From Streptomyces roseochromogenus subsp. oscitans DS 12.976 (GTDB lineage Bacteria; Actinomycetota; Actinomycetes; Streptomycetales; Streptomycetaceae), in contig NZ_CM002285.1 of NCBI RefSeq assembly GCF_000497445.1, forward strand, positions 1,725,144 to 1,773,238: a DNA stretch of 48,095 nucleotides, given 5' to 3'. The position numbers were made by a program, and so were the translations under genes. A model generated the notes under the pieces. It was not told the origin of the DNA and searched no databases. It saw only the letters and a list, made by a program, of their open reading frames with translations. This document shows, piece after piece, positions 39,038 through 47,897 of the stretch (position 1 is its first letter; each line of letters starts with the position of its first letter).

Positions 39038-40564
39038 CTATGCGATGGTCTCTCTCCGGCCCGTCAGCAGCGTGAGCGCCAGGTACAGCACCAGGGACGT
39101 GCCCAGGCCCACCGCCCAGCCGTAGTCCGCCAAGGAGGCCAGGGCGGGGATGGGACGGCCGTCGATCAGGGGCTTGAAGCTGGCGCCGCCGATCGCGAGG
39201 ACACCGCCCGCCAGGAAGGACACGACCGCGCGCCAGTTCCAGCCGCCCGCGTACCAGTAACGGCTTCCCGTGCGGTAGAGGTCGGCGAGGTCCAGGCGGG
39301 TGCGGCGCAGGAACCAGTAGTCGGCCACGAGGATGCCCGCGACCGTGCCGAGCAGGCCGCCGACCAGACCGAGCCAGGTGAAGATGTAGCCCTGCGGGTC
39401 GGAGTACAGCTTCCAGGGGAAGATGAGGACCGCGAGGACGGCGGTGATGAGCGCTCCGGTGCGGAAACTCACCTTTCTGGGCGCCACGTTGGAGAAGTCG
39501 AAGGCCGGCGAGACCAGGTTCGCGGCGATGTTCACGGACAGGGTCGCGACCAGGACCGTCACCAGCGCGTAGAGCAGGCCGGCCACGTTGTCCGTCTTCG
39601 CCGCCAACTGCACCGGGTCCCAGACCGGCTTGCCGTACACGGCCTCGGAGCCGGAGGTGACCAGGACGGACAGGAACGCGAACAGGGTCATCGTCGTCGG
39701 CAGGCCGAGGGCCTGGCCCCAGGTCTGGGCTTTCTGGCTGCGCCCATAGCGGGTGAAGTCAGGAATATTCAGGCTCAAAGTGGACCAAAAGCCGATCATG
39801 CCCATCAATGAGGGCCAGAAGAGCTTCCAGAAGCTCCCGCCCCAGCCGAGCTTCGACGGCTGGTCGAACAGCGGGCCCACGCCTCCCGCCTTGCTGCTCA
39901 TCCACCACAGCATCACGGACGCGCCGACGAGCACAAAGGGCGCCGCCCAGTTCTCGAAGCGGCGGATGGTCTCCATGCCCCGGTAGATGATCGCGACCTG
40001 GATGACCCAGAAGATCGCGAACGACAGCCACATGGTCCAGGCGTAGCCGCCGAAGTGCGCCGCGTTCGACCAGCTGTCACCGATCAGCTTCCCGGCGAGG
40101 AAGTAGATCGCCTCGCCGCCGATCCAGGTCTGGATGCCGAACCAGCCGCAGGCCACCAACGCCCGTACGACGGCGGGCAGGTTGGCGCCGCGCACGCCGA
40201 ACGAGGCGCGGGCGAAGACCGGGAACGGGATGCCGTACTTGGGGCCGGCGTGCCCGGTGAGCAGCATCGGCACCAGCACGATCAGGTTGGCGAGGGCGAT
40301 GGTGAACACCGCCTGCTTCCAGTCCATGCCGACGGCGATCAGACCGGAGGCCAGGGTCCAGGAGGCCGTGTTGTGGGCCATACCGACCCAGAGCGCGGAG
40401 AAGTTGTACGTGGTCCAGGTGCGCTTCCCGGCCGGGACCGGGAGAAGGTCCTCGTTGGCGTAGGGACCGCTGGGCGGCGGGGTGCCGGGAGCGAGTTCCA
40501 CGCGCCCGTCGGGGAGGGTGACCTGGCCGGAGAGGGGTATGGCCGGGGGAGCGGTGTCGGTCAT
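39038..40564 (-). CDS. NCS1 family nucleobase/hydantoin:cation symporter
   Basis: A 508-residue transporter with about twelve membrane helices of the NCS1 family (uracil, allantoin, hydantoin and cytosine permeases). Family motifs: KRTWTTYNFSALWVGMAHN near residues 47-65, GIPFPVFARASFGVRGANLP, and LSLNIPDFTRYG. The region of the last motif uses a run of A/T-ending codons not seen elsewhere in the gene. It is the last gene of the catabolic cluster, 121 bp after the LLM gene, and most likely imports the ring substrate that the hydantoinase degrades. The exact substrate is not predictable. Confidence 0.92.
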   Translation of the reverse strand: MTDTAPPAIPLSGQVTLPDGRVELAPGTPPPSGPYANEDLLPVPAGKRTWTTYNFSALWVGMAHNTASWTLASGLIAVGMDWKQAVFTIALANLIVLVPMLLTGHAGPKYGIPFPVFARASFGVRGANLPAVVRALVACGWFGIQTWIGGEAIYFLAGKLIGDSWSNAAHFGGYAWTMWLSFAIFWVIQVAIIYRGMETIRRFENWAAPFVLVGASVMLWWMSSKAGGVGPLFDQPSKLGWGGSFWKLFWPSLMGMIGFWSTLSLNIPDFTRYGRSQKAQTWGQALGLPTTMTLFAFLSVLVTSGSEAVYGKPVWDPVQLAAKTDNVAGLLYALVTVLVATLSVNIAANLVSPAFDFSNVAPRKVSFRTGALITAVLAVLIFPWKLYSDPQGYIFTWLGLVGGLLGTVAGILVADYWFLRRTRLDLADLYRTGSRYWYAGGWNWRAVVSFLAGGVLAIGGASFKPLIDGRPIPALASLADYGWAVGLGTSLVLYLALTLLTGRRETIA

Positions 40565-40618
40565 GGCTGGCCAATCGGGTGAGGTGGGACGGGAGTTGGC
40601 CGTGCGGGCACCAGCCCC

Positions 40619-40638
40619 CTCCCCGGGACCGCGGGGAG
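40619..40638 (-). other. Hairpin in the LLM-permease spacer
   Basis: CTCCCC at 40619-40624 pairs with GGGGAG at 40633-40638 around an 8-base loop, in the 121-bp gap between the LLM oxidoreductase and the permease. It could be an attenuating terminator that lowers permease expression. Support is limited to the stem. Confidence 0.35.
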
Positions 40639-40685
40639 AGGGTGACCAAGAGGGGTGTGGGGGAGGTCGGGCAACAGAGGTCGGG

Positions 40686-45756: not shown

Positions 45757-45774
45757 GGCCGTGCACCTGTTTCT

Positions 45775-47058
45775 CTAGTACGCGCTCCGCAGCGCCTGTT
45801 CGAGGATCGCCGCGCCCTCTTCCGCCTCCGCGACGGTGAGCGACAGCGGCGGGGCGACGCGCAGGGCGCTGGTGTTGTGGCCACCGCCCTTGCCGATCAG
45901 CAGGCCGCCCTCGCGGGCCATCTCCAGGACGGTGGCGGCCGCCTGCGGATCGGCCTCGTCCGTGCCCGGCCTGACCAGCTCGATGCCGATCATCAGCCCG
46001 CGTCCGCGCACCTCGCGTACGCCGGGCAGCTGGGCGGCGACAGCCCGCAGCCGCTCGATGAGCAGGCCGCCGACCCGGCGGGCGTTGCCCTGGAGGTCGT
46101 GTTCGAGGAGGTAGGTGAGGTTGGCGAGGCCTGCGGCCATGGTCAGCTGGGTGCCGCCGAACGTCGAAATGCTGTTGGCGTCCAGGCAGTTCATGATCTC
46201 GGCGCGGGCGATCACCCCGCCGATCGAGGCGCCGTTGCCGATGCCCTTGGCGAAGGTGACGAGGTCCGGCGGGCCGCTCTGGGCATGCGCCTGCCAGCCC
46301 CAGAAGTGGTCGCCGGTGCGGCCCCAGCCGGTCTGCACCTCGTCGGCGATCCACAGGATGCCGTGCTCCTTCAGCACCTCACGGAAGGCGGCGTAGAGCC
46401 CGTCGGGCGGGGAGGTGAAGCCGCCGACGCCCTGGATGGGTTCGGCGATCAGCGCGGCGGGCGGGCGGGTGTGCCCGAGGATGTCTTTCAGATCGGCGAC
46501 GCACGCGTCGATGAACGCGCGGTCGTCCAGCTCGGCGAACGGGCCCCGGGTGCGCACGCCGCCGTGGACGTACAGGGTCTGCAGCGGGGACAGCGAGGTC
46601 GGCGACCAGCTGCGGTTGCCGGTGATGCCGACCGTGCTGAAGGAGCGGCCGTGGTAGCTGTTGCGCATGGCCAGGACGGTGTTGCTGCGCCGGTGGGCGG
46701 TGGCGAGCAGCAGGGCGGTGTCGTTGGCCTCGGTGCCGGAGGTGGTGAAGAAGACCCGGGCGTCCGGGATGCCGCTCACCTGGGCGATGCGCTCGGCGAG
46801 TTCGACCATCGGCCGGTTGAGGTACAGCGTGGACGAGTGGACGATCCGCCCGGCCTGCTCGCCGACGGCCTTGGTCACCTCGGGCAGCGCGTGCGCGGTC
46901 ATCGTGGTCAGGATGCCGCCGAAGAAGTCCAGGTACTTGTTGCCGGCGGAGTCCCAGACGTGGCGGCCCTCGCCGTGGGTGATCTCGATCGGCTCGTCGT
47001 AGTAGAGGGCGAGCCAGTCGGGCAGGACCTGGCGGTGGCGGGAGTAGAGGTCGTTCAC
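45775..47058 (-). CDS. Class III aminotransferase, beta-alanine/4-aminobutyrate type
   Basis: A 427-residue PLP enzyme of the AGXT2/GabT/omega-transaminase group. Seen features: FFGGILTTMTAHALPEV at about 45-61, TTSGTEANDTALL at 105-117, SYHGRS, the PLP Asp239 in ADEVQTGWGRTG, and Lys271 in TFAKGIGNG. It should transfer the amino group of a beta- or omega-amino acid, such as beta-alanine or 3-aminoisobutyrate, giving a semialdehyde. The start GTG at 47058 overlaps the amidase stop by four bases (GTGA), so the genes are coupled; an upstream in-frame start at 47112 is rejected. No semialdehyde dehydrogenase is in the window. Confidence 0.92.
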   Translation of the reverse strand: MNDLYSRHRQVLPDWLALYYDEPIEITHGEGRHVWDSAGNKYLDFFGGILTTMTAHALPEVTKAVGEQAGRIVHSSTLYLNRPMVELAERIAQVSGIPDARVFFTTSGTEANDTALLLATAHRRSNTVLAMRNSYHGRSFSTVGITGNRSWSPTSLSPLQTLYVHGGVRTRGPFAELDDRAFIDACVADLKDILGHTRPPAALIAEPIQGVGGFTSPPDGLYAAFREVLKEHGILWIADEVQTGWGRTGDHFWGWQAHAQSGPPDLVTFAKGIGNGASIGGVIARAEIMNCLDANSISTFGGTQLTMAAGLANLTYLLEHDLQGNARRVGGLLIERLRAVAAQLPGVREVRGRGLMIGIELVRPGTDEADPQAAATVLEMAREGGLLIGKGGGHNTSALRVAPPLSLTVAEAEEGAAILEQALRSAY

Positions 47059-47897
47059 GGCTGCACCAGCCCTTCGTAGGCGTCGGGGCGGCGGTCGCGG
47101 TAGAAGGCCCACTGCTGCCGCACTTCCTCGATCTGGTCGAAATCGAGGTCACGGACGAGGAGTTCCTCGGACTTGTCGCTCGCGACCTCGCCCACGAACT
47201 TCCCACGCGGATCGACGAAGTAACTGGTCCCGTAGAAGTCGTTGTCGCCGTACTCCTCCTGGCCCACCCGGTTGATGGCGGCGATGAAGTACTCGTTGGC
47301 GACGGCCGCGGCGGGCTGCTCCAGCTGCCACAGGTGGGCAGACAGTCCACGGTGCGTGGCCGACGGGTTGTAGACCAACTGGGCTCCGTTGAGGCCGAGT
47401 TGCCGCCAGCCCTCGGGGAAGTGCCGGTCGTAGCAGATGTAGACCCCGATGCGGCCGGCGCGGGTGTCGAAGACCGGCCAGCCCAGGTTGCCGGGTTTGA
47501 AGTAGTACTTCTCCCAGAAGCCCTTGACCTGCGGGATGTGGTGCTTGCGGTACTTGCCGAGGTAGGCCCCGTCGGCGTCGATCACGGCGGCGGTGTTGTA
47601 GTAGAAGCCGGACTGCTCGACCTCGAAGACGGGCACGACGACGACCATGCCGGTCTCACGGGCGAGGTCCCGCATCCGCCGCACGGTCGGCCCGTCCGGC
47701 ACCGGCTCGGCCCAGCGGTAGTGCTCCGGCTCCTGGACCTGGCAGAAGTAGGGCGAGTTGAAGACCTCCTGGAACCCGATGACCTTGGCACCCTGCCGGG
47801 CCGCCGCACGGGCGTGCTCCTCGTGTTTCGCCACCATGGACTCGGTGTCGCCGGTCCAGGTGGCCTGGACCAGTGCGGCTCGTACGACGTTGGCCAT
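47055..47897 (-). CDS. Nitrilase superfamily N-carbamoyl amidohydrolase, copy 2
   Basis: A 280-residue paralogue of copy 1, with the same triad positions: E44 in GFQEVF, K118 in YRKHHIP and C155 in YICYDRHFPEGW. The ATG at 47897 has AAGGAG six bases upstream; an earlier in-frame start at 47924 is weaker. It heads the operon amidase, aminotransferase, pucR. Its direct coupling to the aminotransferase suggests that its product amino acid is passed on for transamination. Differences from copy 1 cluster at residues 45-66 and in the C-terminal 30 residues. Confidence 0.9.
   Translation of the reverse strand: MANVVRAALVQATWTGDTESMVAKHEEHARAAARQGAKVIGFQEVFNSPYFCQVQEPEHYRWAEPVPDGPTVRRMRDLARETGMVVVVPVFEVEQSGFYYNTAAVIDADGAYLGKYRKHHIPQVKGFWEKYYFKPGNLGWPVFDTRAGRIGVYICYDRHFPEGWRQLGLNGAQLVYNPSATHRGLSAHLWQLEQPAAAVANEYFIAAINRVGQEEYGDNDFYGTSYFVDPRGKFVGEVASDKSEELLVRDLDFDQIEEVRQQWAFYRDRRPDAYEGLVQP

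Follow-up and report, generated by a model that had tools for sequence, protein, structure and literature searches.

A candidate F420H2-dependent LLM-family reductase in place of dihydropyrimidine dehydrogenase in a probable pyrimidine degradation cluster of Streptomyces

The 48,095-nucleotide stretch of Streptomyces roseochromogenus subsp. oscitans DS 12.976 analyzed here (contig NZ_CM002285.1, positions 1,725,144 to 1,773,238; hereafter, the window) contains a set of seven genes that includes a dihydropyrimidinase and an LLM-family oxidoreductase but no flavin and iron-sulfur dehydrogenase of the PydA/PreTA type. This locus raises the question of which protein performs the first, redox step of the pathway, and on which ring. 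The observations described below are best compatible with a cluster for reductive pyrimidine degradation in which step 1 is catalyzed by a single-protein, F420H2-dependent LLM reductase (TIGR03842) instead of PydA/PreTA; we put the probability of this reading at roughly 0.84. All seven genes lie on the minus strand (39038-47924 of the window, from the open reading frame list combined with NCBIfam and Pfam searches) and are given here in the order of transcription:

47055..47897, minus strand: CN_hydrolase carbamoylase 2 (PF00795; 70% identity with carbamoylase 1; ATG start at 47897, with a TTG frame extending to 47924)
45775..47058, minus strand: class III aminotransferase, proposed beta-alanine/beta-aminoisobutyrate transaminase (PF00202; GTG start, longest frame to 47112)
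44191..45756, minus strand: PucR-family transcriptional regulator (PF07905 and PF13556 above the cut-off)
43193..44035, minus strand: CN_hydrolase carbamoylase 1, proposed beta-ureidopropionase (PF00795)
41725..43167, minus strand: dihydropyrimidinase/D-hydantoinase family amidohydrolase (TIGR02033, 557 bits against a cut-off of 393)
40686..41714, minus strand: LLM-family oxidoreductase, proposed F420H2-dependent dihydropyrimidine dehydrogenase (uracil/thymine reductase; TIGR03842, 574 bits against 295)
39038..40564, minus strand: NCS1 nucleobase:cation symporter, proposed pyrimidine uptake (TIGR00800, 472 bits against 353)

Successive genes are separated by a 4-nt overlap and by 18, 155, 25, 10 and 121 nt, in agreement with the earlier note on this DNA, which had described a one-strand set with short gaps or overlaps. 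The overlap is formed by the GTG at 47058 with the stop of carbamoylase 2, and the aminotransferase gene reaches only to about this position if the GTG is the start. The 155-nt gap is likely to divide the set into two transcription units, carbamoylase 2-aminotransferase-PucR and carbamoylase 1-dihydropyrimidinase-LLM-permease.

The earlier note remarked on the missing dehydrogenase in the window alone and held that a pydA or preAT set elsewhere in the genome, together with an LLM gene dispensable for uracil use, would tell against the LLM protein. A search of the genome in full (9.78 Mb, the main contig making up 9.66 Mb; completeness rating 100%) with PF01180 and NF006183 found no enzyme of the PreA/PydA kind. 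PF01180 identifies two places, namely, a quinone-type dihydroorotate dehydrogenase (TIGR01036, 428 bits against 200) and a weak match within another protein, for which FabK is the sole NCBIfam match and scores under the FabK cut-off; at E 1e-60, the PreA model NF006183 matches nothing in the genome. Within the range of these models, the usual dehydrogenase is absent.

The LLM protein is a member of TIGR03842 (F420_CPS_4043; E 8.6e-173, curated cut-off 295.45), an NCBIfam family without assigned function that is named LLM class F420-dependent oxidoreductase. A Pfam search finds only PF00296 in this protein, and not the DHO_dh domain (PF01180). The predicted structure is nearest to Mer and other F420 enzymes, with fifteen rows of F420 enzymes ranked above the first flavin mononucleotide (FMN) enzyme, and the fold is closer to the F420-dependent luciferase-like hydride transferases than to FMN monooxygenases; the protein may bind F420 and transfer a hydride with it. 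Identity with Mer itself is rejected by the scores (130.4 bits against 276 for NF002619, and 122.7 against 348.7 for TIGR03555) and by the column of Mer Glu6, which we take to be a catalytic residue and which, in all 70 aligned members, is occupied by V, T, C or A. Glu6 is the residue mutated in PDB entry 8qq8. Invariant positions of the TIGR03842 protein are D38, S101, R104, H239, D242, Y261, R265, Y270 and H273.

Genomic context ties the LLM family to F420. In Proteobacteria, a recurrent gene run, cofG-cofH-cofD-cofC-cofE-npdG-LLM, is present on plasmids of Paracoccus alcaliphilus and Leisingera as well as in the wider genome scan; it is complete in 9 of the 12 Rhodobacteraceae loci and 11 of the 12 Halomonadaceae loci, and cof or npdG genes are found at 44 of the 59 proteobacterial LLM places. 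Among 248 Rhodobacteraceae genomes, 12 carry the LLM gene and exactly those 12 carry cofD (10 of the 12 cofD scores are above the family cut-off and two are just below). Among 198 Actinomycetota genomes, cofD is found in 41 of the 44 with LLM vs. 73 of the 154 others; the genome that contains the window also has it. Given that F420-reducing genes lie beside the LLM gene, the enzyme would be expected to consume F420H2, that is, to reduce its substrate. Transhydrogenase genes occur in the clusters as well (8 of 12 Halomonadaceae and 8 of 59 proteobacterial places); in the gammaproteobacterial loci L099-L101, L103, L105, L110 and L274-L281, they follow a Zn-dependent carbamoylase gene beside LLM, as if the cassette supplied its own NADPH for F420 reduction. 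A different LLM protein, 31% identical, is encoded on the Variovorax sp. PBL-E5 plasmid NZ_LR594673.1 (L071) next to genes for an amidohydrolase, a CN_hydrolase, a GTP-binding protein, npdG, RidA and cofG-H-D-C-E, and this locus is possibly another F420-linked degradation cluster.

The LLM family is also associated with the pathway genes. Dihydropyrimidinase, whose co-occurrence with LLM in genomes lacking pydA the earlier note proposed to survey, adjoins LLM in 26 of 28 loci of the same genus, with flanks of just 1.5 kb (28 of the 36 same-genus relatives taken in; LLM is above the TIGR03842 cut-off in 37 of 37 same-genus genomes searched, the window's own included), and is present in 27 of 37 places in other actinomycetes. 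None of 20 control stretches (about 20 kb each, chosen from the 42 other LLM places of the window genome) contains pathway genes, so that the arrangement cannot be attributed to chance. The other actinomycete places (37 of 38 listed outside the genus, a second, partial match in G163 being left out) also carry a carbamoylase (33), a class III aminotransferase (19), an NCS1 permease (14) and genes resembling (methyl)malonate-semialdehyde dehydrogenase (MMSDH; 10); at least one pathway gene is present in 34, and the remaining three (L210, L211 and L221) are short or lack flanks or genes. At least one pathway gene is also found in 11 of 11 Chloroflexota places and in 7 of 10 from other groups. The carbamoylase beside LLM belongs either to the CN_hydrolase or to the Zn-dependent family; hence, the association tracks function rather than one frozen operon. 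Two genomes contain two LLM-family copies each: in G045, both (L224 and L225) are in pathway clusters, and in G187 (L209 and L210), only L209 is.

The step at which the LLM protein acts is indicated by comparison with PreA. In the two family samples, the centre genomes of which (G258 and G269) were themselves picked from LLM carriers, PreA is found in 2 of 12 LLM genomes vs. 203 of 236 others (Rhodobacteraceae, 248 genomes) and in 0 of 12 vs. 80 of 248 (Halomonadaceae, 260 genomes), an exclusion that is strong but not strict. The downstream enzymes are of shared kinds. Of the 16 PreTA loci in these families, 15 carry a dihydropyrimidinase, often adjoined by a carbamoylase, permease or aminotransferase that belongs to a family also found near LLM; at all 8 PreTA loci of Halomonadaceae, PreTA and HydA are accompanied by homologs of carbamoylase 1 from the window, with 59-61% identity. 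The mean identity of Rhodobacteraceae dihydropyrimidinases between LLM and PreTA loci is 73%, compared to 73 and 75% within the two sets (one genome is entered twice in the LLM set for these figures). In a tree of 27 dihydropyrimidinases, from which the duplicate was removed, well-supported branches force at least 4 partner switches (L125, an LLM-locus row, comes from a genome that also carries PreA), and a tree of 24 Zn-dependent carbamoylases requires at least 2 partner changes. These switches are the main reason for placing LLM at step 1: the same kind of dihydropyrimidinase is paired repeatedly with LLM or with PreTA, which speaks for its receiving an identical substrate, a dihydropyrimidine, from either partner.

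With respect to the ring, the PDB chains nearest to the dihydropyrimidinase are those of D-hydantoinase and dihydropyrimidinase. The two CN_hydrolases score 253 and 262 bits, under the AguB cut-off of 410, so that "N-carbamoyl amidase" is an assignment at the superfamily level; carbamoylase 1, the only one of the two searched, has as PDB relatives N-carbamoylputrescine amidohydrolase (196 bits) and beta-ureidopropionase (175 bits). The aminotransferase reaches no NCBIfam cut-off among the 25 families listed, and no MMSDH gene is present in the window's own cluster. MMSDH (TIGR01722) acts on malonate or methylmalonate semialdehyde. The share of LLM places with an MMSDH-like gene is 9 of 11 in Chloroflexota, 10 of 37 in actinomycetes and 7 of 59 in Proteobacteria, and 0 of 12 in both the Rhodobacteraceae and the Halomonadaceae sample. 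Of nine candidate proteins examined, eight exceed the MMSDH cut-off; these come from loci of Chloroflexota, Actinomycetota and Gammaproteobacteria. The remaining one, encoded at the haloarchaeal locus L148, falls short of the cut-off and is a generic aldehyde dehydrogenase, so that one place counted with MMSDH in the group of other organisms falls away. In L207 and L222, the genes for carbamoylase, dihydropyrimidinase, MMSDH and LLM are consecutive. The combination of MMSDH and class III aminotransferases in some clusters suggests a beta-amino acid product and hence pyrimidines rather than hydantoins.

Several alternatives have to be weighed against this reading. The LLM protein might act late, reducing (methyl)malonate semialdehyde with F420H2, a type of step ascribed to RutE, while another enzyme reduces the ring. 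The chance of such a late role seems small: that LLM and PreA nearly exclude each other in two families favors step 1, MMSDH already handles the semialdehyde in those clusters that encode it, and a search of the TIGR03842 family loci for PreA, PreT and RutA found none of them (no systematic search for other ring reductases was made).

It is similarly improbable that the same chemistry is directed at another six-membered ring, such as purine-derived yanthine. The accessible part of PMC12507026 proposes a PF00296, F420-dependent yanthine reductase in Chloroflexota clusters, and the TIGR03842 member of L148 (Saliphagus infecundisoli, a haloarchaeon) is encoded with an NCS2-type permease near xanthine permeases and a Zn-dependent carbamoylase, so that haloarchaea, too, may possess the pyrimidine pathway or a variant of it directed at purines. 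However, the clusters of PMC12507026, as far as its accessible text goes, are defined by SsnA with XdhD, YgeX or YgeY, genes that were not sought here. The TIGR03842 clusters have a dihydropyrimidinase above the cut-off, MMSDH in some cases, and families common to PreTA clusters.

Degradation of hydantoins was left open by the earlier note, which spoke of a pyrimidine or hydantoin pathway; the pyrimidine part is favored by MMSDH, the aminotransferases and the PreTA-type dihydropyrimidinases, and the hydantoin part is not. Under that scheme, permease, D-hydantoinase and carbamoylase would process a five-membered ring, and LLM would modify a side chain or an unusual hydantoin. The sole PDB relative of the permease is indeed the hydantoin transporter Mhp1, and the PDB chains nearest to the hydrolase include D-hydantoinases. 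Yet hydantoin hydrolysis involves no redox step and yields alpha-amino acids that are of no use to MMSDH, which together with class III aminotransferases is present in some clusters, and dihydropyrimidinases of the same kind adjoin PreTA in relatives; thus, this scheme is very unlikely.

Least credible of all is a RutA-type FMN monooxygenase that opens the uracil ring oxidatively, which would leave the dihydropyrimidinase needless and fits neither the close tie of LLM to cofD nor the structure ranking, with no RutA model among the 18 NCBIfam matches of the protein (E 0.001). A tblastn search with E. coli RutA on the fetched LLM places of the window genome gave part-length matches only, with 23-34% identity, and no RutA orthologue was seen at those places, to which the RutA search was confined.

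Certain observations weigh against F420-dependent reduction of pyrimidines by the LLM family. The likeness of the permease to a hydantoin transporter is weak counter-evidence, given that NCS1 proteins transport many nucleobases. Within reach of the LLM gene, pathway genes are missing at 21 of the 59 places in Proteobacteria and at 8 of the 12 in Rhodobacteraceae, and cof and npdG genes are missing at 15 of the 59 in Proteobacteria (the rest of these genomes was not searched). Three LLM genomes have no cofD match (G176, G217 and G230; 96, 81 and 89% complete, respectively), and the genome-wide search for F420 genes took in Rhodobacteraceae, Actinomycetota and the window genome, not Chloroflexota. 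PreA is above the cut-off alongside LLM in 7 of 50 LLM genomes checked (50 of the 80 scan loci; the 30 left out have isolate titles of metagenome-assembled-genome or single-cell type), and the two coexist in the 2 Rhodobacteraceae genomes counted above. In Actinomycetota, the exclusion is uninformative because PreA is nearly absent there (1 of 198 genomes, G248, which has no LLM match). The Fisher p-values (in Rhodobacteraceae, 1e-20 for cofD and 5e-7 for PreA; in Halomonadaceae, 0.02 for PreA) are optimistic since lineages share ancestry and are not independent samples. Finally, the dihydropyrimidinases of Halomonadaceae fall into two sets according to whether LLM or PreTA is the neighbor (74% identity between the sets, 90 and 83% within), and the carbamoylase in this family is mostly Zn-dependent beside LLM vs. 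the CN_hydrolase type at PreTA loci.

Nevertheless, the co-occurrence with cofD, the near-exclusion with PreA, the partner switches and the fold jointly support the role that the earlier note suggested for LLM, the F420H2-using redox step of a reductive pyrimidine pathway, and the LLM family as a whole would appear to substitute for dihydropyrimidine dehydrogenase in an F420-dependent manner. In the proposed pathway, the NCS1 permease would take up uracil or thymine, and LLM would reduce the ring with a hydride supplied by F420H2, presumably added at C6 before C5 is protonated, to yield dihydrouracil or dihydrothymine. The dihydropyrimidinase would then open the ring, a CN_hydrolase carbamoylase would release CO2, NH3 and beta-alanine or beta-aminoisobutyrate, and the aminotransferase would produce (methyl)malonate semialdehyde, with PucR as the putative regulator of the cluster. 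A single GlnR-like box pattern has no match in the window, which says little; the G+C content of the stretch is about 70%. In Proteobacteria, cofGHDCE and npdG beside LLM would provide F420 synthesis and NADPH:F420 reduction, sometimes complemented by a transhydrogenase.

A broader proposition, which we consider somewhat more probable than its negation, is that TIGR03842 is an F420H2-dependent dihydropyrimidine dehydrogenase that replaces PydA without being homologous to it and has moved between phyla, and that many Proteobacteria acquired and kept F420 synthesis chiefly for this reaction, as a portable cassette that combines cofactor synthesis, a cofactor reductase and a pyrimidine reductase and, in places, its own transhydrogenase and hydrolases. 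The available part of a 2021 review lists as unanswered the question why Proteobacteria and Chloroflexi make F420; if true, the cassette would answer it for aerobic Proteobacteria. The textbook pathway would likewise gain a second, unrelated first enzyme, with a cofactor best known from methanogens, and a widespread family so far named only LLM class F420-dependent oxidoreductase would be assigned a function. A one-protein uracil reductase without iron-sulfur clusters could also find use as a biocatalyst.

Elsewhere in the window, a gamma-glutamyltransferase-like gene (35097-37000, minus strand) seems to be divided between two frames. Within the 35097-36593 frame, the best-matching stretch covers just the final third of the gamma-glutamyltransferase model, and a part resembling the gene start seems to lie upstream, in another frame.

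In the open-licence PMC literature, no mention of TIGR03842 or CPS_4043 was found, nor, in the parts accessible, of an F420-dependent uracil reductase in pyrimidine catabolism, of which an earlier report in a subscription paper is possible. Several known systems come close to the proposed enzyme. The putative yanthine reductase of Chloroflexota was proposed from gene context (PMC12507026); it, too, is a PF00296 protein thought of as standing in for a PydA-like reductase, but belongs to a uric acid pathway. NpsU/SSGG-03002, according to the accessible text of PMC10714638, is a putative F420/FMN oxidoreductase that is genetically needed for uracil C5=C6 reduction in mureidomycins and for which the authors obtained no in vitro activity; the reaction is alike, going by description only, but it serves the biosynthesis of uridyl-peptide antibiotics. 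RutA shares the luciferase-like fold and acts on uracil, the proposed substrate here. Mer differs in that the TIGR03842 protein is under the Mer equivalog cut-offs and lacks Glu6. A further comparison is with the PydA/PreTA pathway, represented by PreTA of E. coli and by the ferredoxin-type PydAc that PMC7332683 describes. The dihydropyrimidinase, carbamoylase, aminotransferase and permease are of the same families in both pathways, and the Rhodobacteraceae dihydropyrimidinases intermingle in the tree; in contrast, step 1 in the window would be the task of a small LLM-fold protein without a DHO_dh domain, for which F420H2 is the predicted reductant in place of NAD(P)H or ferredoxin.

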